Shown: piece by piece, positions 4,771-25,215 of the stretch | Layout: each line of letters begins with the position of its first letter | Numbering within the stretch: position 1 is the first letter of the stretch | The notes under the pieces: generated by a model | The model's input: only the letters and a program-made list of their open reading frames with translations | Database searches by the model: none | Told to the model about the DNA's origin: nothing | Assembly: GCA_026417495.1 (NCBI GenBank) | Contig: JAOADD010000009.1 | Location: 1-34,872 of the forward strand | Length of the DNA stretch: 34,872 nucleotides | Source of the DNA: Ignavibacteria bacterium | GTDB taxonomy: Bacteria; Bacteroidota; Ignavibacteria; Tepidaquicellales; Tepidaquicellaceae | Direction: 5' to 3' | Program-made: the position numbers and the translations under genes

Positions 4771-7671
4771 ATGAGAAAAATAGCAATGTTTTTAATTACA
4801 TTTTTTTTATTGAGTGGTTCTGCGTTTTGTCAGAAGGAGTATAAATATATAACTTATCCTGATGATCCTCTTAAAACAAGAATATATACTCTTGATAATG
4901 GTTTAAAGGTTTATATTTCGGTAAATAAATCTGAACCAAGAATTGCAACGAGAATAGCAGTGAAAGCAGGTAGTAAATTAGACCCATCGGATGCAACGGG
5001 TCTTGCACACTATCTAGAGCATATGCTTTTCAAAGGTACTGACAAATTTGGGACTAAAGATTTTTCAATTGAAGGTAAGTTGATTGAAGAAATTATAAAT
5101 TTATATGAAGAGTACCGAGCTACGAAGGACCCTGATGAGAGGAAAAATATTTACAGAAAAATAGATAGTGTATCGTATCTTGCTTCTGAATATGCAATAC
5201 CAAATGAATATGATAAAATGTTATCTGCAATTGGTGCTAAGGGAACAAATGCTTATACATCAGTGGAACAAACCGTATATACTAACGAAATTCCTTCAAA
5301 TCAATTTGAAAAGTGGGTAGAAATAGAGGCGGAAAGATTTAGAAATCCAGTTATGAGATTATTTCATACTGAGCTTGAAGTTGTTTATGAAGAAAAGAAC
5401 AGAAGTCTTGATAATGGTTTTTATAAAGCATACGAAGCACTGATGTCGGGACTCTTTTCTAAACATACTTATGGGACACAAACAACAATCGGTACCGTTG
5501 AGCATTTAAAAAATCCATCTATTAAAAAAGTTATTGACTATTATAATACTTACTATGTCCCCAATAATATGGCGATAATTTTAGCAGGAGATATTAATCC
5601 TGATGAAGCAATTAAAATAATTGATGAGAAATTTGGGGTGCTAAAGCCAAAACCTATACCTGATTTTATTCCACCAGTTGAAGAAAAAATTAAAGAACCT
5701 ATTTTAAAAGAAGTTTATAGTCCTGAACAAGAATTTCTGTTTATGGGATTTAGACTACCAGGAGTTAATGCAGAAGATTTTGAAAAACTTGAGATGTTAA
5801 GCAGTATTCTTTATAATGGAACTGCTGGTTTGATTGATTTAAATTTAATTTTACAACAAAAAGTATTACAAGCATCAGCATATATCTATGATATGAAAGA
5901 TTATTCAGTATTGTTTATAAATGCAACACCAAGGGGTGGACAATCACTTGATGAATTGAAAACACTATTATTATCACAAATCGAATTATTAAAGAAAGGT
6001 GACTTTTCAGATTGGTATTTAGATGCCGTTATAAATAATATAAAACTTGAACAGATGCGAATATTGGAAAGCAATAACAGAATTGTTAATGAATATGTAA
6101 ATTCATTTACTCAGGATATTCCATGGGATAAATATTATAAAAAGATTGAATTATATTCTAAAGTTACCAAACAGGATATTATTGATGTTGCAAATAAATA
6201 TTTTGGGGAAAACTATGTTGCTGTTTATAAGAAGACAGGTGAAGATAAAACAGTGCAAAAAATTGTGAAACCGGAAATTACTCCTGTATTAGTAAATCGT
6301 GACACTGAATCAGAATTCTTAAAAAATATTATTAAAACACCCGTTCCCGAAATAGAGCCAGAATTTATTAACTACAAAGAAGTAATAACTGAATCTCTTA
6401 TTCAATCAAAAAATAAAATCTATCACCTTAAAAATAATGAAAATGATTTATTTGAGTTTGCGTTAGTTTATGATATGGGAACTAATAATGACAAAAGATT
6501 AGGGTTAGCAATGAAATATTTATTACTTATAGGGACAGAAAAATATTCTGCAACTGATTTGAGTATAGAGTTTTATAAAATTGGATGTAGATTTGATGCT
6601 AATGCAAATGTTGATAGATGTGAAATAAAAATTAGTGGTTTAAATAAAAATTTTAAAAAAGCAATTGAGTTATTATATCACCTACTCAATGATTGCAAAG
6701 CAGATGATAAAGCACTACAAAACCTAATATCAGATGAATTAAAAGAAAGGGAAAATGCAAAACTATCTAAAAATATTATTTTAAGGCAAGCGCTTCTCAA
6801 TTATGGTAAATATGGTGCTTTATCACCTTTTACTAATGTATTGTCAACAGAAGAATTGAAATTGTTAAAAGGTGAAGACATAACTTCACTAATAAAAAAT
6901 CTGTGTTACATTCAGCATAAAATTGCTTATTATGGACCTTTTAGTAGTGAAGAATTTTATTCTGCAATACAACCATATTATTTAAAAAAGATAATGCCTT
7001 TTGATCCACCTCCAGAGAAAAACTTTCCTGAACTTGAAACTCAAGAAAAAGTTTATTATGTAAATTATAAAATGCAGCAAGTTGAAATTATGATGATAAG
7101 TAAAAGCGTATTATATGATGCCAAACTTACTCCTGTAATAAGATTATTTAATGAATATTTTGGTTCTGGAATGTCTTCTGTAGTTTTTCAGGAATTAAGA
7201 GAAGCAAAAGCACTCGCTTATTCTGTGTATTCCAATTTTACCACACCACGGGAAAAAGGTAAATCTTATTACATTACATCATATATAGGGACACAAGCAG
7301 ATAAGCTTGCTGAAGCTTTAGATGGATTTATTGCATTATTAACTATTTTACCTGAATCCGAAATATCTTTTAACTCAGCAAAGGATGGTATTATTAAGCA
7401 AATTCAATCCGAGAGAATTTTAAGGTTTGACATCATAAGGAATTATCTTAACAACTTAAGATTTGGAATCGATTATGATATTAGAAAAGATATATATGAA
7501 CAAGTACCTAAAATGACTCTAACAGATTTGAAAGAGTTTCACCAAAAGTATTTTAATCATAAGTCATATACTTATCTAGTTATAGGTGATAAAAATAAGG
7601 TTGATATTGATATATTAAAGAAATATGCAGATTTTAAAGAGTTGACTTTGGAAGAAATATTTGGATATTAA
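4771..7671 (+). CDS. Exported M16 metallopeptidase, long two-unit form (pitrilysin-like)
   Basis: 966 residues. After a signal peptide (about 1-20) comes a catalytic M16 domain with the inverted zinc motif H80-Y-L-E83-H84 in 'LAHYLEHMLFKG'; the third ligand is probably Glu207 or Glu208 in 'EVVYEEKN'. A helical insertion at about 95-150 lengthens the spacing compared with the classic roughly 74 residues. The second half (about 540-966) is a degenerate M16 unit with the substrate-binding R/Y region 'QELREAKALAYSVY'. Long M16 enzymes enclose short peptides in a clamshell chamber and degrade them. The gene stands alone, divergent from the M28 gene. Both halves are in one chain, unlike the split pair at 22611-25215. 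Confidence 0.93.
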   Translation: MRKIAMFLITFFLLSGSAFCQKEYKYITYPDDPLKTRIYTLDNGLKVYISVNKSEPRIATRIAVKAGSKLDPSDATGLAHYLEHMLFKGTDKFGTKDFSIEGKLIEEIINLYEEYRATKDPDERKNIYRKIDSVSYLASEYAIPNEYDKMLSAIGAKGTNAYTSVEQTVYTNEIPSNQFEKWVEIEAERFRNPVMRLFHTELEVVYEEKNRSLDNGFYKAYEALMSGLFSKHTYGTQTTIGTVEHLKNPSIKKVIDYYNTYYVPNNMAIILAGDINPDEAIKIIDEKFGVLKPKPIPDFIPPVEEKIKEPILKEVYSPEQEFLFMGFRLPGVNAEDFEKLEMLSSILYNGTAGLIDLNLILQQKVLQASAYIYDMKDYSVLFINATPRGGQSLDELKTLLLSQIELLKKGDFSDWYLDAVINNIKLEQMRILESNNRIVNEYVNSFTQDIPWDKYYKKIELYSKVTKQDIIDVANKYFGENYVAVYKKTGEDKTVQKIVKPEITPVLVNRDTESEFLKNIIKTPVPEIEPEFINYKEVITESLIQSKNKIYHLKNNENDLFEFALVYDMGTNNDKRLGLAMKYLLLIGTEKYSATDLSIEFYKIGCRFDANANVDRCEIKISGLNKNFKKAIELLYHLLNDCKADDKALQNLISDELKERENAKLSKNIILRQALLNYGKYGALSPFTNVLSTEELKLLKGEDITSLIKNLCYIQHKIAYYGPFSSEEFYSAIQPYYLKKIMPFDPPPEKNFPELETQEKVYYVNYKMQQVEIMMISKSVLYDAKLTPVIRLFNEYFGSGMSSVVFQELREAKALAYSVYSNFTTPREKGKSYYITSYIGTQADKLAEALDGFIALLTILPESEISFNSAKDGIIKQIQSERILRFDIIRNYLNNLRFGIDYDIRKDIYEQVPKMTLTDLKEFHQKYFNHKSYTYLVIGDKNKVDIDILKKYADFKELTLEEIFGY

Positions 7672-10927: not shown

Positions 10928-12247
10928 TCATTTAACAAGTATCATTAATTTTGCGTCATTGAAATTTTCTGTTGTTAGTTTATAAATATAAATACCACTA
11001 CATAAGTTACTTGCTTCAAAATTGATACTATATAATCCAGATCTTTGATACTCGTCTATTAATGTTCTTACTTTTCTACCTGTTATATCGTATAAATCTA
11101 ATGAGACTTTTGTCTGTTCTGGTAACGAATATCTTATAACCGTGCTGTTATTGAAAGGATTTGGGTAATTTTGATATAAAACATAATTTTTAATTATTAA
11201 GAAATTATTTTTTACTTTCGGAATATAACCTAAATTTGTGTCTAATAAAACAGTATAATTTTCAATTATAATTTGTCTCCCCTCATTACACAATGTCCTT
11301 CTTAAGAATTTAGTTGTTCTTTTAAGTAGGTATTCAATAGGATAAAAATTTTCATGACCTCCTCCAGGAACATAGTTCAATTCAAAAGGGAATTTTATGT
11401 TTCTCATTCTTTTCATAATTTCATAGGAACCTTGGGTCAAAATATAATTAGGACAAGAATAAGCATACCCAGTACCATAAGGAACATTTATATCTGCTGT
11501 CCCATGAAACATTAATATTGGAATTGCTTTCGAATATGTAATGTATGACGTATCTAAAATAGCACCAGATGAGCTAATAACGGATTTTACTCTAAAATTT
11601 ATTTTATAGGTGTTTGTTGCAGAATCTAAATAACCAAGTTCATTTACAAGGTTTGGATATAGAGAGTTAATATCATTTTGAGTAATGAAAGGTAAAAGCA
11701 AACTTATAACAGCACCTGCACTTATTCCACCTACAAACATATAGGAAGTATCAATTCTGAATTGATTAGCATTAGCACAAAAAAACCTGAATGCAGCTTT
11801 GGTATCCTGCAGTGCTCTATAAATTGCTTTTACTAATGAATAACCATCTCCATTACAATCAAATGGATTTCCCCCTGTATTCCATCCAAGTCTATATGAT
11901 ATAGACGCAGTTACATATCCTTTCATTGCAAAATCCATAATTATTGGTTTCAATATATATTTATCACCTGAATAAAACCCGCCACCATGAAGTAGAAGTA
12001 GGAATGGTCTTTTATTTAATGAATCTAATGAGAAATTTGGATGAGCAATAATAGCATCAAGCATCACATTTTGTCCTAGCCAATTGACATTTTGTCCATA
12101 AATTATTTCTCCTATTGTATCTATTTCATTTATTCCAAATGCATAGTTTGTATCAAATCTACCAGGTATGCAATAAGACTGAGAGAACGCTAATTTAAAT
12201 ATTAATAAAAAGATGAAAATCGATATATATTTTTTCAATACGAACAT
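10928..12247 (-). CDS. Secreted alpha/beta-hydrolase esterase with T9SS sorting domain
   Basis: 439 residues: signal peptide about 1-22, then an alpha/beta-hydrolase of the carboxylesterase/BD-FAE type. The oxyanion-hole motif is His87 in 'LLLHGGGF'; the nucleophile is Ser176 in 'GGISAGA'; Asp252 in 'HGTADINVP' and His298 in 'PGGGHENF' complete the triad. Residues about 355-439 are a T9SS type A sorting domain ('LYQNYPNPFNN', 'DLYDITGRKVRTL', 'CSGIYIYKL'). It is therefore predicted to be surface-attached or secreted and to hydrolyse esters, perhaps acetyl or feruloyl groups on polysaccharides; the substrate is inference. Its ATG lies 2 bp beyond the stop of the upstream baeRF gene on the same strand, so the two are co-transcribed. 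Confidence 0.9.
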   Translation of the reverse strand: MFVLKKYISIFIFLLIFKLAFSQSYCIPGRFDTNYAFGINEIDTIGEIIYGQNVNWLGQNVMLDAIIAHPNFSLDSLNKRPFLLLLHGGGFYSGDKYILKPIIMDFAMKGYVTASISYRLGWNTGGNPFDCNGDGYSLVKAIYRALQDTKAAFRFFCANANQFRIDTSYMFVGGISAGAVISLLLPFITQNDINSLYPNLVNELGYLDSATNTYKINFRVKSVISSSGAILDTSYITYSKAIPILMFHGTADINVPYGTGYAYSCPNYILTQGSYEIMKRMRNIKFPFELNYVPGGGHENFYPIEYLLKRTTKFLRRTLCNEGRQIIIENYTVLLDTNLGYIPKVKNNFLIIKNYVLYQNYPNPFNNSTVIRYSLPEQTKVSLDLYDITGRKVRTLIDEYQRSGLYSINFEASNLCSGIYIYKLTTENFNDAKLMILVK

Positions 12248-12249
12248 AA

Positions 12250-13338
12250 TTAATATCTCAAGATGAGTGCAATATGTCCGTATTTATCAAGTTTACCATT
12301 ATCAACAAAGACAACACTACCTCCTGTATTAACAACTCTTTCTATAATATCATCTACAGCATCATCAATAATTTCTTTACCTGGAGCAACCTCTACAGGT
12401 ATTAGATGTAATCCATCATCAGATACTCTTGCAGAATATTGATAGTTCAATTCTACAACTAAAAGTCTACCTCTACCTTCATTTGCAAGTTTCCATACTT
12501 CGTCAACACCACTAGCAAGTTTTCTTTTACCATATGCTTCTTCAATTTCTTTGATTATTTTATCTCGCTTTTCTGCTCTTACTCGTTTGACTTCGGGCCA
12601 AACTATTTTAGAAAGTTCATGTGCTGAAACTGTTTCATAATTACCATTTATCCCTGTTAATATTAGTTCTTTTTGAGATGAAATATCGTTATATAAACTC
12701 AGAGTCCTTTCAGTCCCTGTTATAACAACTGAGTAATTATCAACATTAATATTTTTTAATTTAGAATCTAATTCTCTTAAATATTTTCTTATTCTTTCTA
12801 TATTATCGGATTGCCTATCATTTCTATGTGTTTCTGTTGTTAATGATGATTTTGTTTCATAATATGTATTTGTGAATGGAAATTCATTTTCAGTATATTC
12901 TATAATATTATCTCTTATCCCGAGAAATAATTTTGCAATCTTATCACTTATTACAAGCACCCAATATGGTTCACTTCTATTTATACCAAATACGAGATCA
13001 CGTGTGGCGAAGGTAGGGTCGATAATAACCCTTTCCTTTACTGGAAATGGTAAATAAAATTTTATTGCTTTATCTTTATTAACAAAGATTGCAAGTCCAT
13101 CTAAAAAACTATTGTAATCAATGCTTTGATTTATTTCATTAATTTTATCAAGAATCTGTTTTACTTCTTCCTTTTTAAATTCTTCGTTAAGTCTTTTTGT
13201 TGCTAAATTAATTAAATTTTTTAATCTCAAAGGGTCTTGCTTGTTTTCAGGAAAATGTCTATGTGTGGGCATTAAAATTGAAACGCATGGATAAGAATTA
13301 ATTGATTGTAAGTATTTTAATGCTTTTAGATTAATCAT
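12250..13338 (-). CDS. baeRF-family protein (bacterial release-factor-like)
   Basis: 362 residues, soluble, no signal peptide. The N-terminus 'CVSILMPTHRH' followed by 'DPLRLKNLINLA', and the C-terminal 'GSVVFVDNGKLDKYGHIAL', match the bacterial archaeo-eukaryotic release factor (baeRF) families, probably family 3 or 7. These are homologous to eRF1/Pelota and end in an L7Ae-like domain. They are predicted to act on ribosomes or RNA, but no function is proven, and some databases label them as chemotaxis proteins without good reason. It is the first gene of a two-gene unit with the secreted esterase and is divergent from dnaJ. The family call is from memory of motifs, not a search. Confidence 0.7.
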   Translation of the reverse strand: MINLKALKYLQSINSYPCVSILMPTHRHFPENKQDPLRLKNLINLATKRLNEEFKKEEVKQILDKINEINQSIDYNSFLDGLAIFVNKDKAIKFYLPFPVKERVIIDPTFATRDLVFGINRSEPYWVLVISDKIAKLFLGIRDNIIEYTENEFPFTNTYYETKSSLTTETHRNDRQSDNIERIRKYLRELDSKLKNINVDNYSVVITGTERTLSLYNDISSQKELILTGINGNYETVSAHELSKIVWPEVKRVRAEKRDKIIKEIEEAYGKRKLASGVDEVWKLANEGRGRLLVVELNYQYSARVSDDGLHLIPVEVAPGKEIIDDAVDDIIERVVNTGGSVVFVDNGKLDKYGHIALILRY

Positions 13339-14707: not shown

Positions 14708-15118
14708 ATGAATAGAGATTACGAATCCTACATTATTGTTGATGGAAACTTAGAAGATGCTTCTATTGAAGAAATAATTAAACGATATGAAAATCTTCTA
14801 AAAAAGTACAAAGCAGAAATTAAAAACATTGATAGGATTGGAAGGAAAAGATTAGCATATCCTATTAAGAAAAAACAAAATGGATATTATGTCTGTTTTG
14901 AATTTATTGCTAAGAATGATGTAATTGCAAAACTAGAAAGAGCGTATAGACTTGATGAAGATATTTTAAGATATTTAACAATATATATGACTAAGAAAGA
15001 ATTAAATGCAAAGAAGAATTATCTTGAAAAACGTTCCAAGATATTAGAAAATATTGAAGAAGCAATAAAAGTTAATGAAAATATAGATAGTACCGAAGAT
15101 GAAGTACCTACTGAATAA
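14708..15118 (+). CDS. rpsF: 30S ribosomal protein S6
   Basis: 136 residues from the ATG at 14708; the TTG at 14705 is discounted. 'NRDYESYIIVDGNLED' and 'IGRKRLAYPIKKKQNGYY' are typical of bS6, followed by 'RLDEDILRYL'. The acidic C-terminal tail is about 35 residues beyond the core. S6 binds S18 on the platform of the small subunit. It heads a cluster with ssb and rplI, but rpsR (S18), its direct partner and usual neighbour, is not here. No Shine-Dalgarno sequence is visible. Confidence 0.95.
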   Translation: MNRDYESYIIVDGNLEDASIEEIIKRYENLLKKYKAEIKNIDRIGRKRLAYPIKKKQNGYYVCFEFIAKNDVIAKLERAYRLDEDILRYLTIYMTKKELNAKKNYLEKRSKILENIEEAIKVNENIDSTEDEVPTE

Positions 15119-15159
15119 AATGAGTGTTGTTTTAAATAACTTTAATTAATTAATTATAC

Positions 15160-15165
15160 GGAGGT
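15160..15165 (+). promoter_or_regulatory. Strong Shine-Dalgarno site of ssb
   Basis: GGAGGT lies 6 nt before the ssb ATG at 15172. This is unusual in the window, where most starts, including those of rpsF, rplI, rplB, rpsS, rplN and rpsE, have no purine-rich site. It fixes the ssb start. Confidence 0.7.
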
Positions 15166-15171
15166 AATCGT

Positions 15172-15639
15172 ATGGCTGAATACAAGATGCCCGAAATTAA
15201 TTCAGTAATTATTGCAGGAAATTTAACTAAAGACCCTGTATTTCGACAGACTACAAACGGGACACCAGTAGTTAATTTTTCTATTGCAAGCAATCGAAGA
15301 TTTAGAGATAAAAGTGATGAATGGAAAGAGGATGTGTGTTATGTTGGTGTGGTTGCATGGAATAGGTTAGCAGAAAGTTGTCGTGATAAATTGAAAAAAG
15401 GAAATGCTGTTCTAGTTGATGGTGAGTTACAAAGTAGGACATTCAAGACTGAAGACGGTTCAAATAGGACAATTGTTGAAATAAAAGCCAGAAGAATTCA
15501 ATTTTTGAATAGGAGAATGGCACAAAGTGGTTCAGCGGATCAACAAGCAGATGATAAAGATGAACCAACAACCTTTGTTGATGACAATTTTGATCAGTTA
15601 TTATCTCCTGAAGATACTAACTTACCACCTGAACAATAA
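15172..15639 (+). CDS. ssb: Single-stranded DNA-binding protein with atypical C-terminus
   Basis: 155 residues. The OB fold spans about 8-112: 'INSVIIAGNLTKDPVFRQT', 'VVNFSIASNRRF', 'VAWNRLAESCRDKLKKGNAV' and 'RTIVEIKARRIQFL'. It coats single-stranded DNA during replication, repair and recombination. The acidic linker follows (about 118-150), but the last residues are 'EDTNLPPEQ' rather than the usual acidic tip ending in a proline-phenylalanine pair (DDxPF) that recruits partner proteins. No frameshift explanation is seen: the stop is followed by a clean terminator. It lies 53 bp after rpsF. Another ssb elsewhere in the genome could carry the canonical tip. Confidence 0.94.
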   Translation: MAEYKMPEINSVIIAGNLTKDPVFRQTTNGTPVVNFSIASNRRFRDKSDEWKEDVCYVGVVAWNRLAESCRDKLKKGNAVLVDGELQSRTFKTEDGSNRTIVEIKARRIQFLNRRMAQSGSADQQADDKDEPTTFVDDNFDQLLSPEDTNLPPEQ

Positions 15640-15662
15640 TTATAACTAAAAATATATCGTTT

Positions 15663-15697
15663 GTAAATGGATATTTAATCCATTTACTTTTTTATTT
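15663..15697 (+). terminator. Rho-independent terminator between ssb and rplI
   Basis: GTAAATGGAT (15663-15672) and ATCCATTTAC (15678-15687) make a perfect 10-bp stem with a 5-nt loop, followed by TTTTTTATTT. It is the strongest terminator in the window. It sits exactly where rpsR is usually found, so rplI must have its own promoter or rely on readthrough. Confidence 0.85.
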
Positions 15698-15719
15698 ATT
15701 AAATTTTATTTTTTAAGTT

Positions 15720-16208
15720 ATGAAAGTAATCTTAAAACAGGATTTTGAAAAACTTGGAAATGCTGGTGATATTAAGGAAGTTAAAAATGGATATGCAAGA
15801 AATTTCCTTATTCCAAGAGGTATTGCTGTAGCAGCAACCCCTGCAAATATAAAATCATTTCAGGAGGTTAAACGCCAGCAAGAGAGGAAACGAAAAAGAG
15901 AACTTGAGAACGCGAGAAAAACTTCATTTGAAATTGAAAGGGATGTTTTGGAAATTTATGCTAAGGCAGGTGAAGAAAATAAGTTGTTTGGATCTATTAC
16001 TGCTCAAATGATATATGAAAAACTTCTTGAGAAAGGTTATAAAAATATTGAGAGAAAAAAAATTCTATTGCATGAACACATTAAGACTCTTGGTGAGCAC
16101 ATTGTAGAAATAAAATTACATTCTGATGTTATTGCTAAACTGAAGGTCCTTGTAAAAGATGAAAAAACTCTTAAAGAAAAAGACGATAATAAAAAGGAAA
16201 AGGAATAA
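15720..16208 (+). CDS. rplI: 50S ribosomal protein L9
   Basis: 162 residues. The N-terminal RNA-binding domain has the family signature 'GDIKEVKNGYARNFLIPRG' (about 18-36). A long connecting helix rich in Lys/Arg/Glu follows (about 45-75), then the C-terminal domain 'KLFGSITAQMIYEKL'. The last 15 residues are a charged Lys/Glu tail. bL9 sits at the base of the L1 stalk and helps maintain reading frame. It is separated from ssb by a terminator. Confidence 0.96.
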   Translation: MKVILKQDFEKLGNAGDIKEVKNGYARNFLIPRGIAVAATPANIKSFQEVKRQQERKRKRELENARKTSFEIERDVLEIYAKAGEENKLFGSITAQMIYEKLLEKGYKNIERKKILLHEHIKTLGEHIVEIKLHSDVIAKLKVLVKDEKTLKEKDDNKKEKE

Positions 16209-16325: not shown

Positions 16326-18194
16326 ATGGATAATAATAAAAGTAAGGGAAAAAGGAAACCTGGAAGCAAACCACAAGTAAAAGCTGTTGATGAAGTTACA
16401 ATTAGATTTGCTGGTGATAGTGGAGATGGAATGCAACTTACTGGTAGTCAATTTTCAGATACAATTGCAGCAGAAGGGCATGATGTAGAAACATTTCCAG
16501 ATTATCCCGCAGAAATTAGAGCTCCTTCGGGAACTTTGTATGGTGTAAGTGGATTTCAAATTCATTTCTCAGGGCATGATGTTCATACACCAGGTGATCA
16601 GATTGATGTTTTGGTTGCTATGAACCCAGCTGCATTAAAAGTGAATTTAAAAAATTTAAAAAAGAATGGTATCATAATTGCAAATTCGGATGCTTTCGAT
16701 AGAAAGAACCTTGATTTAGCAGAATATCAAACAAATCCTCTTGAAGATGGTTCATTAAGTTCATATATAGTGTATGATATCCCTATCACGAAGCAAACTA
16801 TTGAAGTACTAAAAGATCTTGACTTACCATTAAAAACTGTACTTAAGTGTAAAAATTTCTTTGCTCTCGGAGTAGTATATTGGCTTTACAATAAGTCACT
16901 TGAATATACATTGAATTGGATTGAGGAGAAATTTAGTAATCAACCTATGATTATGGAAGCCAATAAACGGGTTTTAAAAGCTGGATATTACTATGGTGAA
17001 AATACAGAAATGTTTACCACCCGTTTTGAGGTTAGAAGAGCAAAATTACCAAAAGGTATTTACAGGAACATTAATGGAAATGAAGCAGTTGCTCTTGGAT
17101 TGGTTGCTGGTGCTGCGAGAGCAGGTATACCACTTTTTCTTGGGAGTTACCCAATTACACCTGCTTCTGAAATAATGCAAACTTTATCAAGGTATAAAAG
17201 ATATGGTGTTAAGACTTTTCAAGCGGAAGATGAAATTGCAGGTATCTGTACTGCCATTGGAGCTTCTTATGCAGGGTGTTTAGGTGCAACCTCAACAAGT
17301 GGTCCTGGTATGGCTCTGAAAACAGAAGCAATAGGATTAGCTGTTATGGCAGAATTACCTTTAGTTATTATTAATGTTCAAAGAGGTGGACCTTCAACTG
17401 GATTACCAACTAAAACCGAACAGGCAGATCTATTACAGGCTGTTTGTGGTAGGAATGGGGAATCACCTGTGCCTGTACTTGCCGCAATTAGCCCAGCTGA
17501 TTGTTTTGATGTTGTTATTGAAGCTATAAGGATTGCAATTAAGTATATGACTCCTGTAATAGTTCTCACCGATGGTTATATTGCACAGGGTTCTGAACCA
17601 TGGAAAGTAGTTAAAGTTTCTGAATTACCAGAAATGAAAGCAGTTTTTAGAACAAGTCCAGATGGGTTTTATCCTTATGCAAGAAATGAATTCCTCGCGA
17701 GGCCATGGGTAAAACCAGGTACTAAAGGTTTAGAGCATAGAATTGGAGGATTAGAGAAACAGGATATTACAGGTAATATCAGTTATGAACCTGACAATCA
17801 TCATAAAATGGTAACTCTTAGAGCGAAAAAGATAAAAAATATTGATAAAGATATTCCAGAAGTAAAAGTTATTGGAAAAGAAAAGGGAAAACTATTAGTA
17901 TTAGGATGGGGAAGTACAACAGGTGCAATTGCTGATGCAGTGGAGGATGTGAATGAAAAAGGTTTTGATGTCTCTTACGCATATTTGCGTTATCTAAACC
18001 CATTTCCACGGAATCTTGGAAAAGTATTGAAAAATTTTGAGAAGATTCTCATACCAGAGGTAAATCTCGGACAACTTGCAAAGTTAATTAGAGCTGAATA
18101 TTTAATTGATGTAATTCAATTTAACAAGGTCAGAGGTATTCCATTCAGACCCTCTGAAATTGCAAATAAGATTGAAGAAATTTTGAAAGATTAA
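16326..18194 (+). CDS. korA: 2-oxoacid:ferredoxin oxidoreductase, fused gamma/alpha subunit (KorA type)
   Basis: 622 residues in the fused gamma-alpha arrangement. The gamma domain (about 22-220) begins 'IRFAGDSGDGMQLTG' with 'EIRAPSG'. The alpha domain (from about 250) has 'GNEAVALGL' and the substrate-binding 'YPITPASE' (275-282), then 'STSGPGMALKTEAIGLA'. With KorB it oxidises 2-oxoglutarate (or related 2-oxoacids) to the acyl-CoA with reduction of ferredoxin; the reverse carboxylation runs in reductive TCA organisms. No separate ferredoxin-like delta subunit is encoded here, as in other two-subunit KorAB enzymes. korB follows after 32 bp. Exact 2-oxoacid preference cannot be read from sequence alone. 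Confidence 0.93.
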   Translation: MDNNKSKGKRKPGSKPQVKAVDEVTIRFAGDSGDGMQLTGSQFSDTIAAEGHDVETFPDYPAEIRAPSGTLYGVSGFQIHFSGHDVHTPGDQIDVLVAMNPAALKVNLKNLKKNGIIIANSDAFDRKNLDLAEYQTNPLEDGSLSSYIVYDIPITKQTIEVLKDLDLPLKTVLKCKNFFALGVVYWLYNKSLEYTLNWIEEKFSNQPMIMEANKRVLKAGYYYGENTEMFTTRFEVRRAKLPKGIYRNINGNEAVALGLVAGAARAGIPLFLGSYPITPASEIMQTLSRYKRYGVKTFQAEDEIAGICTAIGASYAGCLGATSTSGPGMALKTEAIGLAVMAELPLVIINVQRGGPSTGLPTKTEQADLLQAVCGRNGESPVPVLAAISPADCFDVVIEAIRIAIKYMTPVIVLTDGYIAQGSEPWKVVKVSELPEMKAVFRTSPDGFYPYARNEFLARPWVKPGTKGLEHRIGGLEKQDITGNISYEPDNHHKMVTLRAKKIKNIDKDIPEVKVIGKEKGKLLVLGWGSTTGAIADAVEDVNEKGFDVSYAYLRYLNPFPRNLGKVLKNFEKILIPEVNLGQLAKLIRAEYLIDVIQFNKVRGIPFRPSEIANKIEEILKD

Positions 18195-18226
18195 TTTTTA
18201 TTTTCACTTAATTTTATAAGTTTATT

Positions 18227-19252
18227 ATGGAAGAAAAAGAAACTAAACCCAAATATACTCCAAAAGATTTCGCTTCAGATCGAGATGTAAGATGGTGTCC
18301 AGGTTGTGGAGATTTTTCTATATTAGCTCAGATACAAAGAACCTTTGCACAATTTCTTGATATACCAAGGGAGAAGATTGTTTTCATATCTGGTATTGGA
18401 TGTTCAAGTAGATTCCCTTATTATATGAATACATATGGATTTCATACTATTCATGGGAGAGCTGCAGCTATTGCATCAGGTGTTAAATGTGCAAATCCAG
18501 ACTTATCAGTCTGGATACCAACAGGGGATGGTGACCTTTTAAGTATAGGTGGTAATCATTTCATACATATATTGAGAAGAAATATTGATGTAAATATTAT
18601 TTTATTTAACAATAGAATTTATGGATTAACAAAAGGGCAAGTATCTCCAACTTCTCCACATGGTATGATAACAAAATCAACTCCACTTGGTAATATAGAG
18701 CATCCTGTAAATCCAATTTCCCTTGCTCTTGGTATGGAGGGAACATTTATTGCTAGATCTATTGATAGAGATCCTAAACATTTGCAGGAAATGATTATAA
18801 AATGTTATAAGCATAAAGGTGCAACATTCCTGGAAGTGTTTCAAAATTGTGTTATTTTTAATGATGGTGCTTATGAACTTTATTCAAATAAAGAAACAAG
18901 AGATGACTATTCGATATATATTGAACATGGGAAACCCTTAATTTTTGGAAAAAACAAGGATAAAGGTATTAAACTTGATGGCTGGAAACCTGTTGTTGTT
19001 GATTTAAATAGTCCAAATATTAGTGTGAATGATTTATTAGTTTATGATGAAAAGTCTCGCGAGCTTGCTTTCATTCTAAGCAGTTTTAGTGATAACCCGG
19101 ATTTACCTATGCCATTTGGAGTATTTCTTAATGTCGAAAAGAATACTTATGATGAGGATATGAAAAATCAAATTTTAGATTTGCAATTCAAATATGGAAA
19201 AGGAGATGTCGATGAATTATTAAAAGGAACGGATTATTGGGAAATTAAATAA
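18227..19252 (+). CDS. korB: 2-oxoacid:ferredoxin oxidoreductase beta subunit (KorB type)
   Basis: 341 residues. Four cysteines suited to the 4Fe-4S cluster are present: C24 and C27 in 'WCPGCGDFS', C59 in 'GIGCSSRF' and C208 in 'FQNCVIFNDG'. The thiamine diphosphate motif is GDGD (100-103) followed by 'FNNRIYGLTKGQ'. This subunit carries the active-site cofactor and passes electrons to ferredoxin. It pairs with the preceding korA in a two-gene operon and ends 3 bp from the convergent outer-membrane gene. Confidence 0.94.
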   Translation: MEEKETKPKYTPKDFASDRDVRWCPGCGDFSILAQIQRTFAQFLDIPREKIVFISGIGCSSRFPYYMNTYGFHTIHGRAAAIASGVKCANPDLSVWIPTGDGDLLSIGGNHFIHILRRNIDVNIILFNNRIYGLTKGQVSPTSPHGMITKSTPLGNIEHPVNPISLALGMEGTFIARSIDRDPKHLQEMIIKCYKHKGATFLEVFQNCVIFNDGAYELYSNKETRDDYSIYIEHGKPLIFGKNKDKGIKLDGWKPVVVDLNSPNISVNDLLVYDEKSRELAFILSSFSDNPDLPMPFGVFLNVEKNTYDEDMKNQILDLQFKYGKGDVDELLKGTDYWEIK

Positions 19253-19255
19253 TTT

Positions 19256-22200
19256 TTAGAAATCCAATCCTAAAGAGAAATAATATTTTGGCTCTGAGAA
19301 TTTTTTGAAATCAAAGCTATACGCTACATCAAACTTAAAAGGTATTCCGAGAAATATAATTCTAAGACCATATCCCATTCCAAGTAATAAGTCTTTTGTT
19401 TTAATTCCACCATCATTTGTAAATAATTGTAATTTCTTATTATCCCTCCATGCGGTACCAGCATCTATAAAAAGATTTCCTTGAATATCTTGAAAACCAA
19501 GAGGTAAGACTCCAAGTATAAGGTACTTAAACAAAGGAAATCTAAATTCAAAATTTGTTAAAGCGAACTTAGAACCTGAAATTCTATCATAATTATATCC
19601 CCTTAATGGGAGAATAGGCATAGAGAAAGCAAATTCATCTATATTGCTAATTGGTATATTATAATTTTCAAATTCTCTATTTATCCAATTTTCAGTACCA
19701 CCTAAATAAAATCTTTGAGGATTTTTACCGAAACTTGCTCCAAGGTTTAATCTCATTGCTAATGAAAAACCATCTGCAATTTTTATATATTTTCTAAAAT
19801 CACCAATAATTGAAGCAAACTCAATTCCATCACTTCCTAATTTAGGAGATCCTAAAAATGTAATATTAAATCTTGAACCTTTTTCGGGTGCGAGGTATCC
19901 CCAAAGAGAGTTATCGAATACATATCTCACAGAAGGGACTAAGAAAGTATTGGAATTCATAGGTTCTTCATTATCATCCAGGTTCTCTTGCGTCACATAC
20001 ATTAGATGCAATCCACCATCAAATCTTTTAAATCTTGTAAGTGGATATGAAAAAAGTAAACTTGTTCCCATATTCCTATATCTAAATAGTTCATCTCCAT
20101 AGCCTCTATCATACAAGATAAATCTTGCTGTGTGATATAGTTCAAAACCTATATCTAATCTTTTTGGTAAATAGTAATAAGAGAGTGCATAATCACTATT
20201 TTTCAAATCTATTACCATCGAAGTCAAGATATTAATTCGGTGATTACCCATCAAATCACTTAATGATATTATAGCATTTCCTTGTACACCATAAAAACTT
20301 GAGTAACCAGCGTTTCCATAGACTAGATCTGGAGAGAATCTGATCTTATAATCACCAATCCTAAAACTTCCATCGGGATTTATATTGTCTTTAATTTGGA
20401 AATTTAGATTGTTAACATAATCAGAGTCATCACTTACAATTTTTTTATTCGTTTTTTTCTTTTTGAAATCTATTACTATATTGTTACCTTGATTAACTAA
20501 AGTATCCTTATCAATATTATTATCCACTTTAGTAATTTTGCTCGTATCTATTTTTAAAGTATCTGATAAAATTTTCTGAGTTGTGTCATTTAATTTTGTA
20601 AGTTCTTCTTTCTTGATTTTATTTTTAACATATGTTGTTGGTTCGAGTTTTTCTAATCCTATGTTTCTTTCAAGCGGACTATCCATAGAGAAAATATCAT
20701 AACCAAGTTTATTCAATGCTACAAAAAGTAATTTCTTTCCATCTTTTGAGAGTGTTATTTGTGAAATAGGATTTACACTGTTCGTAATAGGTCGTTCTTT
20801 GAATGTACCTTCATCAGTATATTCTCTTAAATAAATATTGTCAATACCGTTAATATCTGATACATATAACATTTTTTTCCCATCAGAACTGAGTTGTACA
20901 TACTTTTCATTAGCATCAGGATTATCTATTATTTTTTCAATTTCTTTTGTAATTGTATTAATCCTGTAAATTCCCCTACCATTGTAATTCATAGAATATA
21001 TTTTGAAATCTTTTGGTAGGAGTGATGGGTTAATATAATCTTTCCTATCTGAATCGAAATAAATAAATTTTCCATCGTGAGACCATACTGGATTTTCATC
21101 TGAGAAAATATCATTTGTAAGGTTAGTTATTTTTTTTGTTATAAAATCATAAATATAAATATCAGATTGTTTCCCATTATTACCTGTGAAAGCGAGTATG
21201 TTTGATTTTGGAGACCAGCTTGCATTTGTTATAGAAGGTAAACTTATTGGTAACTTTTCATCATCACCTGTGTTCAAATCAATTACGAATATAGCATCAC
21301 TTTCTCCTGCTTTGACACTAATTGCCATTTTTTTAGAATCAGGAGACCATGTTAATCCTGGTGTTAAGACTTGTAATTCTTCGAAGTTATTTGTAGTGTT
21401 ACCTTCTACTACTTTATCAATAATTTTTCCTGTTGTTGCATCAGCAAGGAATACATCAAAATAGTCATCACGATTGGATATAAATAAGAACATTTTCCCA
21501 TCTGGTGATATTGACGGGGCAATGTTATAGAAACCTCCATCTTTGGTATGATCAGTTAGCATCTTAGCGAAGTCTAACACTTCTTCTTTATTTACTGCAT
21601 CAGACCAATAAACTTTTTTTAATTCTTTATGCCATTTTTCTGAAAGTTTTTCCAGTTCTAATTTATATGTTTCCTTAAAACCTTCGTAAACATCATTCAA
21701 TGATTTGATGTTATTCATCAATTCACCAATTTTATGTTCACCATAATAATCCATTAGAAAAGCAAAAAAACTTTGACCGCCTCTATATGCTAAATACCCA
21801 TCACAGTATTCTATTGGTGGTAAATAATCATTCATTATTGCATCTCTTATATACATATCAGTTTCTTTATCCAGTCCATTAAGGCTCTGACTTTCTGCCA
21901 TACCTTCTGCAAACCAGATCGGAATAGATAAAGTAATATTTTTTGCAATTACATTTTGAATTGAGCCTCCATAAAACATATCATTCATAAAACCATGTAA
22001 AAGTTCATGATGAATTACATGCCTGAATTGTTCATAATTTCCCTCAAATGGAATTAATATTCTGTTTTTAAACAACTCAGTAACCCCACCTACTCCTTCT
22101 GGTAGATATTCGTCAATTACATTATTCTGTTGAAAATCATTTGAAGATAGAAAAAGAATTATTGGAATACGATTGCTGATACGATAGTCAAGATTATTAG

Positions 22201-22429
22201 ATAATTTTTCTAATGCTTTTTCTGCTTCTATCGCGGTAAATTCTGCTATATCATATCCATTATCGTAAAAATATATATCGAAATGCTTCGATTGAATGAA
22301 TTTCCATTTAAAATTTTTGTATTGAACTTTATTCTTCCCAAACTCTTGTGATTCTAATGTAACATTAATTACAAGTATAAATACAAATAAAAAGAATGAG
22401 AATATTTTTAAAATTTTAAAATGTTTCAT
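19256..22429 (-). CDS. Exported gluzincin-like / TolB propeller / outer-membrane barrel protein
   Basis: 1057 residues. After a signal peptide (about 1-27) comes a peptidase MA-like domain with HExxH at 141-145 ('HHELLHGF') and the downstream Glu175 or Glu179 in 'WFAEGMAES', the layout of gluzincin zinc peptidases. Residues about 300-585 contain repeated TolB/WD40-like blades ('SISPDGKMFLFIS', 'WSPDSKKMAIS', 'WSHDGKFIYFDSD', 'SSDGKKMLYVSD'). A Lys/Asp/Thr-rich linker (about 590-690) leads to a predicted beta-barrel (about 697-1057) of surface-antigen/Omp85 type ending in Phe. This predicts a protein anchored in the outer membrane with a propeller and a putative peptidase in the periplasm. Similar fusions are annotated only as TolB-like or peptidase-like proteins; the role is unknown. 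Confidence 0.85.
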   Translation of the reverse strand: MKHFKILKIFSFFLFVFILVINVTLESQEFGKNKVQYKNFKWKFIQSKHFDIYFYDNGYDIAEFTAIEAEKALEKLSNNLDYRISNRIPIILFLSSNDFQQNNVIDEYLPEGVGGVTELFKNRILIPFEGNYEQFRHVIHHELLHGFMNDMFYGGSIQNVIAKNITLSIPIWFAEGMAESQSLNGLDKETDMYIRDAIMNDYLPPIEYCDGYLAYRGGQSFFAFLMDYYGEHKIGELMNNIKSLNDVYEGFKETYKLELEKLSEKWHKELKKVYWSDAVNKEEVLDFAKMLTDHTKDGGFYNIAPSISPDGKMFLFISNRDDYFDVFLADATTGKIIDKVVEGNTTNNFEELQVLTPGLTWSPDSKKMAISVKAGESDAIFVIDLNTGDDEKLPISLPSITNASWSPKSNILAFTGNNGKQSDIYIYDFITKKITNLTNDIFSDENPVWSHDGKFIYFDSDRKDYINPSLLPKDFKIYSMNYNGRGIYRINTITKEIEKIIDNPDANEKYVQLSSDGKKMLYVSDINGIDNIYLREYTDEGTFKERPITNSVNPISQITLSKDGKKLLFVALNKLGYDIFSMDSPLERNIGLEKLEPTTYVKNKIKKEELTKLNDTTQKILSDTLKIDTSKITKVDNNIDKDTLVNQGNNIVIDFKKKKTNKKIVSDDSDYVNNLNFQIKDNINPDGSFRIGDYKIRFSPDLVYGNAGYSSFYGVQGNAIISLSDLMGNHRINILTSMVIDLKNSDYALSYYYLPKRLDIGFELYHTARFILYDRGYGDELFRYRNMGTSLLFSYPLTRFKRFDGGLHLMYVTQENLDDNEEPMNSNTFLVPSVRYVFDNSLWGYLAPEKGSRFNITFLGSPKLGSDGIEFASIIGDFRKYIKIADGFSLAMRLNLGASFGKNPQRFYLGGTENWINREFENYNIPISNIDEFAFSMPILPLRGYNYDRISGSKFALTNFEFRFPLFKYLILGVLPLGFQDIQGNLFIDAGTAWRDNKKLQLFTNDGGIKTKDLLLGMGYGLRIIFLGIPFKFDVAYSFDFKKFSEPKYYFSLGLDF

Positions 22430-22610: not shown

Positions 22611-23861
22611 ATGAACAGAATACCTTTTGTTGAAGCTTACCTTGATAATGGTATTAAGGTAATTGTGTCCGAAAATAGCAGAATACCTATTGTTATTCTT
22701 CTTATTGGTTTTAAAGTAGGTTCAAAAAATGAACCTAAAGGTAAAAAAGGCCTTGCACATTTACTTGAGCATTTGATGTTTTCTGGAGGATATGATAAAG
22801 AAATGAATTATTTTGATAAAATGCTTGCATTAAATGGTGGTGATTCAAATGCTGTAACAAGTTATGATTATACTTATTATTATATTCAAATTCCTTCTCA
22901 TAAATTGGAATTTGCTTTAGAACTTGATACTGATAGATTTACAACTATGGGATTTGATGATAAGTCTCTAAATATTCAGAAAAAAGTTGTAATAGAAGAA
23001 AAAAAGGAAGCTTATGATAATACCCCATATGGTGATGTTGAGATGTTATGTGCAAAAAATCTTTTCAAAAATACTGATTATGAAGTCCCTGTTATAGGTT
23101 TGGAGAAAGATATTAATAATCTAACTGTGACTGATATTAGTAATTTTTTTTATGAGTATTATAATTCTAACAACTGCATTATTTCTATTGTAGGTAATAT
23201 AAATTGTAATAAAACTTTGAAACTACTAAATAAGTACTATTCAAGAATTTTAAAGAATGCAAATAAAATTTATAAATTTTCAGATTGTGATTTTAAATCA
23301 CCAATTGAATTATATCCAACTTCAAAAATAAAAATAGATTTGAATTCAAAGTTCATATTTTTTAAAATTCCTGCTCGTACCAGCAGGGAATATTATATTT
23401 TAAGAATGATTTCTATAATACTTGGAGATGGTTTTAGTTCAAGATTATATAAGAATCTCATTTACGAAAGAAAGGTTGCTCATTCAATTTATGTTTCACC
23501 ATCTTCATTTGAACATTCAGGTATGTTTGAGATTAATATTCTCTTTGATGACGGGAAAAAAGATAAGGAAATAGAGCAAATTATATTTGAAGAAATAGAT
23601 TCATTGAAGAATGGAAACTTTACTGAAGAAGAATTTCAAAAAGCTAAAAATAAAGTACAACTTGCTTTTGCAAATGGTTACCAGAAAAATTTAGCATTAG
23701 CACAAGCATTATTTTATTATGAATTTTTCTTCAATAATGTTAAGCTAATAAATGAAGATGTTAATAATTATCTTGGAATTACAAAGGAAGATATTATTGA
23801 TTCTGCTTGTAGGTATTTGGATTATAATAAAAGACTTGTTATTACATATCTCAAGGGATAA
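22611..23861 (+). CDS. M16 metallopeptidase, catalytically complete subunit
   Basis: 416 residues, no signal peptide. The inverted zinc motif is H50-L-L-E53-H54 in 'LAHLLEHLMFSGG', and Glu129 in 'VVIEEKKE' is 75 residues after His54, the classic M16 spacing. The C-terminal half (about 215-416) is the second M16 domain. It most likely forms a heterodimer with the next gene's product, as in M16B enzymes and mitochondrial processing peptidase. Lack of a visible signal peptide suggests cytoplasmic processing of peptides or precursor proteins. It heads a likely operon: the stop is 7 bp from the next ATG. Confidence 0.92.
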   Translation: MNRIPFVEAYLDNGIKVIVSENSRIPIVILLIGFKVGSKNEPKGKKGLAHLLEHLMFSGGYDKEMNYFDKMLALNGGDSNAVTSYDYTYYYIQIPSHKLEFALELDTDRFTTMGFDDKSLNIQKKVVIEEKKEAYDNTPYGDVEMLCAKNLFKNTDYEVPVIGLEKDINNLTVTDISNFFYEYYNSNNCIISIVGNINCNKTLKLLNKYYSRILKNANKIYKFSDCDFKSPIELYPTSKIKIDLNSKFIFFKIPARTSREYYILRMISIILGDGFSSRLYKNLIYERKVAHSIYVSPSSFEHSGMFEINILFDDGKKDKEIEQIIFEEIDSLKNGNFTEEEFQKAKNKVQLAFANGYQKNLALAQALFYYEFFFNNVKLINEDVNNYLGITKEDIIDSACRYLDYNKRLVITYLKG

Positions 23862-23868
23862 ATTTATT

Positions 23869-25215
23869 ATGATGAAGCTTTCTGAATTAATTGGCATCAA
23901 AATACCAGAGGTATCCAAAATTAAATTTCAAAATGGGATTAAACTTTTGATTATAAAAGATAGAAGATTTCCTGTGATTACTTCAATGTTTGTTTTTAAA
24001 AATGGTTCTATTAGTGATTCATATAGTGAAAAAAATCTTTTTGGTCTATGTTCTTTAACATCTGAACTGATTATTAAGGGAACAGAAAATTATTCTGCAT
24101 CTGAAATAGCAAACAGGATTGAATCAACAGGAGCATATATTTTTAGTGGGTGTAGTTATGATTTTTCTTTTCTTACTGTTCATTCATTAAAAAAATATTT
24201 TGAAGAAAATTATTCCTTTTCTAATGAACTTTTAAGGAATTCAATTTTTCAGGAAGAAGAGATAGAGAGACTGAGATTTCAAAAATTAAATTTAATGAGA
24301 TTAAATTTTAATTATGGTGATTATATTTCAAATAGAGTTTTTAAAAGAAATGTTTATGGAAAATCGTTATATGGGATTAATCCCGATGGCACTCTAACTA
24401 CATTGGAAAAATTAACGAGGAAAGATATTTTGAATTTCTACAAGAGTTTCTATTTACCGAATAATTTAATAATTATATTAATTGGCGATATAACTGATTC
24501 AAAAGCAATTAAATTAACCGAGAAATATTTTTCGAATTGGGGACCTAAAAAAATTCCTGATTTTAAAATTTTTCCTCAGAAAAATATTAAAGGAATAAAT
24601 GTGTATTTCATACCAAGAAAGGGTTCTGCACAAACAAACATAATTATAGGACATAAAAGTGTTGCTATAAAATGCCCTGATTATATCAAATTAAAAGTTT
24701 TGAATGCTCTACTCGGTGGAACTTTTATATCAAGAATAAATAGAAACCTTAGAGAGTTACAAGGGTTTACTTATTACACTTTTTCTTCCTTAAATTGCAG
24801 AAAATATCAAGGTGATTTTTCAATTGAGACAAGTGTTGATAATAAGCATACAATTAGCGCAATTAAAGAAATAATTAAAGAAATGAGAAATATAAGGGAA
24901 AATTATGTAGAGGATGAGGAATTAGTTTATGTTAAGAATTTCATAATAGGAAATTACCCTCTTCAAATAGAAACTGCTAACGAGATTGCAACAAAAGTTC
25001 TAGAATTAGAGTTATACAGTTTGAGAAAAGATTTTTATAATACATTATTGATTAAAGTTAATAATGTGAATAAAAAAGATATTTTTGAAGTCGCGAATAA
25101 ATATATTGACCCACAAAATTTAGTAATTTCTGTTGTTGGTGAGCCAAAGGTAATTAGAAATTCACTTGAAGAAATCGGACAAGTTAAAATAATAACAAAA
25201 ATTGATAACTTATAA
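23869..25215 (+). CDS. M16 peptidase-like partner lacking the zinc motif
   Basis: 448 residues from the ATG at 23869; upstream in-frame codons overlap the preceding gene and are not needed. The fold is M16, but the HxxEH position reads S62-L-T-S65-E66 ('FGLCSLTSELIIKG'), so no zinc can be bound there. The partner-type R/Y region is kept ('RINRNLRELQGFTYYTF'). This matches the inactive subunit of M16B pairs, which supplies substrate-binding residues to the active partner. The two genes are in different frames and each encodes a full two-domain unit, so this is not a frameshifted single gene. moxR follows after 12 bp. Confidence 0.9.
   Translation: MMKLSELIGIKIPEVSKIKFQNGIKLLIIKDRRFPVITSMFVFKNGSISDSYSEKNLFGLCSLTSELIIKGTENYSASEIANRIESTGAYIFSGCSYDFSFLTVHSLKKYFEENYSFSNELLRNSIFQEEEIERLRFQKLNLMRLNFNYGDYISNRVFKRNVYGKSLYGINPDGTLTTLEKLTRKDILNFYKSFYLPNNLIIILIGDITDSKAIKLTEKYFSNWGPKKIPDFKIFPQKNIKGINVYFIPRKGSAQTNIIIGHKSVAIKCPDYIKLKVLNALLGGTFISRINRNLRELQGFTYYTFSSLNCRKYQGDFSIETSVDNKHTISAIKEIIKEMRNIRENYVEDEELVYVKNFIIGNYPLQIETANEIATKVLELELYSLRKDFYNTLLIKVNNVNKKDIFEVANKYIDPQNLVISVVGEPKVIRNSLEEIGQVKIITKIDNL

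Follow-up and report, generated by a model that had tools for sequence, protein, structure and literature searches.

A predicted zinc metallopeptidase, a TolB-type propeller and an Omp85-type outer-membrane barrel are joined in a single chain encoded on the window, the whole stretch of 34,872 nucleotides of Ignavibacteria DNA that was analysed. The fusion protein is a real and widespread bacterial outer-membrane protein, apparently without a characterised member, and it is probably a component of outer-membrane building or quality control. Its zinc motif is intact and conserved, its barrel carries the Omp85 motifs, and in many relatives its gene stands in operon-like linkage to tamB. We propose, with confidence and doubt in about equal measure, that it is a barrel-anchored outer-membrane zinc metallopeptidase serving TamB- or BAM-dependent outer-membrane assembly or quality control. 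Outer-membrane assembly is known chiefly from Proteobacteria and, recently, from Flavobacterium and Bacteroides. The fusion family is present throughout the sampled genomes of the class, comes in several paralogous types, keeps its zinc site and is placed in a bamA-lpx-tamB gene order. If it is a TAM- or BAM-linked peptidase, then TamB's pairing in these lineages, and the way in which they clear stalled barrels, become directly testable.

Domain architecture and the predicted zinc site

Structure models and their fold matches show three domains in one chain (Table 1), as a sequence-only reading had proposed. The N-terminal sequence carries no lipobox cysteine, and a Pfam scan of the protein gave no POTRA match. 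The full-chain AlphaFold model (eight sequences; mean pLDDT 67, pTM 0.45) displays all three domains, with a mostly helical N-terminal one and a barrel of about 15-16 strands by DSSP, certain stretches of which are of low confidence.

Table 1. Features of the fusion gene and its product, in window coordinates.
Feature	Position	Strand	Basis or content
Fusion gene, ORF of 1057 aa	19256..22429	-	Signal peptide, metallopeptidase, TolB-like propeller, disordered linker, Omp85 barrel
N-terminal hydrophobic signal peptide, residues ~1-28	22346..22429	-	Sequence reading; similar start in orthologues
Gluzincin-type peptidase domain, residues ~40-290	21560..22312	-	Pfam Peptidase_MA_2 and separate model
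HELLH zinc-binding motif, H141 E142 H145	21995..22009	-	Conservation in 85-relative alignment
WFAEGMAE with E175	21893..21916	-	E175 kept in 83/85 relatives
TolB-type beta-propeller, residues ~301-590	20660..21529	-	PD40 E 3.2e-24; TolB 3iax Z 28.1
Lys/Asp/Thr-rich linker, residues ~591-690	20360..20659	-	Low model confidence, pLDDT <50 over 599-681
Omp85-type transmembrane barrel, residues ~694-1057, Phe at end	19259..20350	-	BamA matches; PF01103 in orthologues
PLRGY, Omp85 loop-6 motif, residues 941-945	19595..19609	-	R943 73/85, G944 75/85
FIDAG, Omp85 FxDxG strand motif, residues 987-991	19457..19471	-	F987 83/85, D989 85/85, G991 84/85

By motif, fold and family profile the N-terminal domain makes the protein a gluzincin, and zinc binding and peptidase activity are predicted for it. 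The Peptidase_MA_2 match covers residues 69-270 (E 5.9e-11, above the Pfam cut-off). Since propellers filled the whole-model structure searches, the domain was modelled and searched separately, and the best 50 structural matches of this isolated model (pLDDT 77.5, pTM 0.78) are gluzincins throughout. Bacterial collagenase of family M9 (Z 15.1) and lugdulysin of family M30 (Z 14.8) are the top folds, and M1 aminopeptidases match with Z of about 12-13.4. The HExxH motif and its downstream Glu, which the earlier reading had described as complete, are present as H141-E142-L-L-H145 and as E175 in WFAEG. In the model they sit on a pair of long helices that follow each other (132-153 and 171-182), a gluzincin-like arrangement, and E175 is likely the third zinc ligand by analogy with other gluzincins.

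Conservation of the site is high. H141, E142, H145, E175 and E179 are invariant across 32 close orthologues, the window protein included. A wider alignment of 85 relatives takes in both paralogues of the source genome together with other paralogue types; here H141 and H145 are kept in 81 relatives, E142 and E175 in 83, and all four residues together in 81, both own-genome paralogues among them. A chance occurrence of HExxH was ruled out by the Pfam score, the fold matches and this conservation. The zinc ligands are lost in four rows of the alignment (L039, L040, L041 and L140), which come from Cytophagales and family f29 and which a quick tree unites in one clade with full support; several long branches leave the deep parts of this tree unsure. 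A fifth sequence, L042, also lacks the zinc ligands and is closely related to L040 and L041. In all five Cytophagales-type homologues the HExxH is replaced while propeller and barrel are retained. These homologues are likely inactive forms, so the protein of this clade would act, if at all, non-proteolytically, and the survival of the clade suggests an independent function for the barrel-propeller part.

The propeller comprises five PD40 stretches and superposes on TolB 3iax with an rmsd of 2.2 over 244 residues (VIA-align). All significant PDB sequence matches of the fusion protein are TolB-type propellers, and NCBIfam TolB gives a partial match below its curated cut-off (E 4e-31). The barrel, taken as residues 694-1054, matches BamA of F. 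johnsoniae (VIA-align Z 19.8, rmsd 5.7, 280 residues aligned) and of D. radiodurans (Z 19.7). Profile matches are weaker in this part of the protein: NCBIfam Omp85_fam matches at 942-1026 below its curated cut-off (E 1.8e-9), and the window protein has no match to Pfam Omp85 PF01103, which orthologues in other genomes (E 8.4e-17 in G016, 1.3e-13 in G073 and 2.7e-11 in G093) and a paralogue of the source genome match above cut-off. The chain ends in Phe, as had been noted from the sequence, and the final residue is F or W in 83 of the 85 relatives. With a BamA-type barrel, the loop-6 RG(F/Y), the FxDxG and a C-terminal aromatic residue, the protein belongs to the Omp85 superfamily; it lacks the POTRA domain, at least one of which defines a classical Omp85 protein.

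Known relatives and distribution

The propeller-barrel fusion itself is already known. The sequence-only reading had held that TolB-like and Omp85 domains normally work apart, a view overtaken since 2014, when Heinz & Lithgow named a subfamily, WD40-Omp85, that carries a TolB-like propeller and that they compared to a fusion of BamA and BamB (PMC4104836). The same paper counts non-POTRA subfamilies, WD40-Omp85 included, within Omp85. Both the subfamily and the fusion protein place a TolB-like propeller N-terminal to the Omp85 barrel, where it replaces POTRA, and the fusion proteins are very likely members of the subfamily or close kin, judged by its description. In contrast, the WD40-Omp85 text is silent on a peptidase domain and on tamB linkage, both of which are found in the fusion family. 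The word 'peptidase' is absent from the main text of that paper, and its 'Metallo' subfamily is based on PF00149, a different family. The expectation that no member has been characterised agrees with the literature searched, a search that most subscription papers lay beyond, and in searchable papers the peptidase and the tamB linkage seem to be undescribed.

Several better-studied proteins share parts of this design. BepA, an M48 metallopeptidase of E. coli that acts on BAM (PMC8423444), is the proposed functional analogue as a periplasmic zinc metallopeptidase in outer-membrane protein assembly. BepA, however, stands alone in the periplasm and has an M48 domain, whereas the fusion protein carries an MA_2-type gluzincin on its own barrel; membership of M48 was ruled out, with no match to M48 in Pfam up to E 1. 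The closest studied enzyme-on-barrel analogue is PlpD, a patatin-Omp85 protein whose enzyme domain has been shown to be periplasmic (PMC11116518). PlpD has a lipase, a POTRA domain and no propeller, unlike the fusion protein with its peptidase, its propeller and no POTRA, and membership was rejected because Pfam finds neither patatin nor POTRA. A patatin-POTRA-Omp85 protein of the PlpD type is encoded elsewhere in the same genome (L091:6114-8864, G000:C76) as a second enzyme-on-barrel fusion. TamA and TamL (PMC4494059, PMC12045153) likewise have an Omp85 barrel and recall the fusion gene's linkage to tamB in many genomes, but the fusion protein carries a propeller and a peptidase and has neither POTRA domains nor a lipid anchor; the absence of three POTRA domains and of a lipobox excludes it from their family. 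TolB of Tol-Pal has the same propeller fold (Z 28), but TolB combines it with its own N-terminal domain and the fusion protein with a peptidase and a barrel. A true TolB was ruled out, the score of 108 bits lying far under the NCBIfam equivalog cut-off of 343.

The family is widespread in Bacteroidota and Chlorobiota, to which the named relatives belong (Melioribacteraceae, Chlorobiales and Cytophagales, for example). At E 1e-3 a match is present in 141 of 148 sampled genomes of the phylum, many weak ones of which may be propeller-only. Strong matches occur in 36/36 sampled genomes of the window's class, which suggests a core function. In a single contig scan, the sole match from outside Bacteroidota and Chlorobiota was a partial one to the propeller, on the gammaproteobacterial contig L043, and PF13485 had no match in 14 control genomes. 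The source genome has three copies: the window copy, a C9 copy of 940 aa counted from its ATG (31%), which is the paralogue that matches PF01103, and a C13 copy of about 1030 aa. It also encodes a stand-alone Peptidase_MA_2-like protein of 293 aa with HELTH and WLDEG (L095:7207-8088, minus strand, G000:C44), which has neither barrel nor propeller.

Gene linkage to tamB and to BamB-like genes

The genomic context of the orthologues points to outer-membrane biogenesis. Of the 62 members of the orthologous clade that were sampled, 35 have a TamB-like gene, an RNase R gene (rnr) and the fusion gene in this order on one strand, mostly with a gap of 3-50 nt between rnr and the fusion gene. These 35 come from f2, f3, f4, f9 and f12 within the class and from f13, f23 and f24 beyond it, eight families in all. 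In three further members only the RNase R neighbour is present, and two of these loci lie at contig ends. The linkage to tamB is absent from families f5-f8, f10, f11, f15, f20 and f21, and in one locus of family f31 (L126) tamB and an hldE-type nucleotidyltransferase gene adjoin the fusion gene divergently, without rnr. The upstream gene of about 1500 aa was assigned to TamB by NCBIfam TamB matches, which lie below cut-off, together with a custom profile that includes the PF04357-positive TamB of the window genome. PF04357 matches the TamB of the window genome with E 2.8e-27 and that of L126 with E 3.2e-31, and the assignments were unchanged once an unverified long protein (L068|9) was removed from the profile. 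The conserved pair upstream is not tamB plus tamA, since its second gene encodes RNase R.

The linkage extends into a larger cluster. In G051 the upstream block reads uppS-bamA-skp-skp-lpxD-lpxC/fabZ-lpxA, a lipoyl-ligase-like gene, one unknown gene and hldE. An identical uppS-to-hldE block occurs in G066, on a contig that stops within tamB. At L156:6309-17270 this order (with the ligase gene lplA-like) continues into tamB, rnr and the fusion gene, and its unknown gene of 359 aa (14714-15793) has no Pfam match. Because a cytosolic enzyme, RNase R, is encoded between tamB and the fusion gene, the linkage may in part reflect nothing more than an inherited order of genes. On contig C38 of the window genome, tamB and rnr still lie together with hldE-type genes, but the fusion gene is missing there, which indicates that the window copy has moved away from tamB. 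Its present neighbours are a 2-oxoacid:ferredoxin oxidoreductase pair (16326-19252), with which it is convergent, and two M16 peptidase genes (22611-25215), from which it diverges. Shuffled sequences give about as many promoter-like sites as the real sequence, and the search for a terminator was negative.

The C9-type paralogue has a different neighbour. A same-strand BamB-like gene follows it directly in 6/6 loci checked (L150-L155), all of which lie outside the window genome; the C9 copy of the window genome itself has no such gene downstream. The BamB-like gene of L151 encodes a PQQ-propeller (PF13360, E 7.2e-21) with a lipobox, and the downstream genes of the other loci resemble it with E between 4.6e-148 and 2.3e-14. 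The L151 gene (L151:9663-10814) shares a few bases with the fusion gene.

Proposed role and alternatives

The role that we favour would begin with export of the protein to the periplasm by its signal peptide and insertion of the C-terminal Omp85 barrel by BAM. The TolB-like propeller and the gluzincin domain would hang beneath the barrel on the periplasmic side, with a flexible linker taking the place of POTRA domains; this topology is modelled on the usual Omp85 arrangement and on the PlpD precedent (PMC11116518). The propeller may bind either a partner or a client protein, with TamB or a client of BAM or TAM as the most plausible candidates, and the barrel could serve as an anchor or as an insertase-like platform. 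The peptidase may trim or degrade proteins that are under insertion or stalled, as BepA does on BAM in E. coli. In this scheme the presumed partner and substrate are read from gene linkage and the putative proteolysis from motifs. Three uses had been suggested from the sequence: outer-membrane quality control, a secretion-linked function and surface processing. Quality control or assembly is the best supported, because orthologues sit behind tamB in an outer-membrane biogenesis cluster, while this analysis found no positive support for surface processing or secretion.

The same linkage could mean that the fusion protein is TamB's Omp85 partner, which we think unlikely. For Bacteroidota, tamL is reported to lie outside the operon of tamB (PMC12045153), which makes the operon-like linkage of tamB to another Omp85 noteworthy. 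Moreover, no TamL-type lipobox was found among the POTRA-Omp85 proteins examined in eight genomes, and the surviving clade without zinc ligands fits a barrel and propeller acting alone. However, non-lipidated POTRA-Omp85 proteins are present in the same genomes and may be the TamB partners. One of those in the window genome has three POTRA domains as in TamA, the fusion protein has none, and tamB is distant from the fusion gene in the window genome and in several families. A broader version combines this partnership with proteolysis. Outside the well-studied Bacteroidia, in much of Bacteroidota-Chlorobiota, TAM would use a different outer-membrane partner, an Omp85 with propeller and peptidase replacing POTRA, and a single outer-membrane machine would unite quality control by proteolysis with the transfer or assembly that depends on TamB. 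We offer this generalisation as an unlikely speculation.

A periplasmic envelope hydrolase that uses its barrel only as an anchor, cleaves peptides, lipoproteins or cell-wall-linked proteins, and has no part in barrel assembly is rather improbable. The resemblance of the fold to collagenase, M30 and M1 enzymes favours it, as do the TolB-type propeller with its known role in Tol-Pal and the three diverged paralogues of one genome, which suggest several substrates. Against this stand RGY and FxDxG, which are kept as in functional insertases, seemingly beyond the need of a plain anchor, and the linkage of the orthologues to tamB and of the paralogue to BamB-like genes. Least probable is a self-translocating or surface-displayed peptidase (type Vd-like), whose barrel would expose the N-terminal domains on the cell surface to serve nutrition or processing: an enzyme and an Omp85 barrel do share one chain, and the window's other peptidases and type IX sorting-domain proteins make extracellular hydrolysis part of the organism's life, but in the prototype, PlpD, the enzyme was shown to stay periplasmic (PMC11116518), the barrel would need to let through two folded N-terminal domains, and presence in all sampled genomes of the class and a bamA-lpx-tamB neighbourhood fit a housekeeping envelope role better.

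Further genes were noted in the window. The two M16 reading frames at 22611-25215 (plus strand) overlap by about 110 nt, and a third, long M16 protein is encoded at 4771-7671. Proteins with a type IX sorting domain (Por_Secre_tail) are encoded at 897-1940 and 10928-12247, and the organism therefore probably has a type IX secretion system. The minus-strand gene at 12250-13338 encodes an archaeo-eukaryotic release factor-like protein (baeRF family 3).
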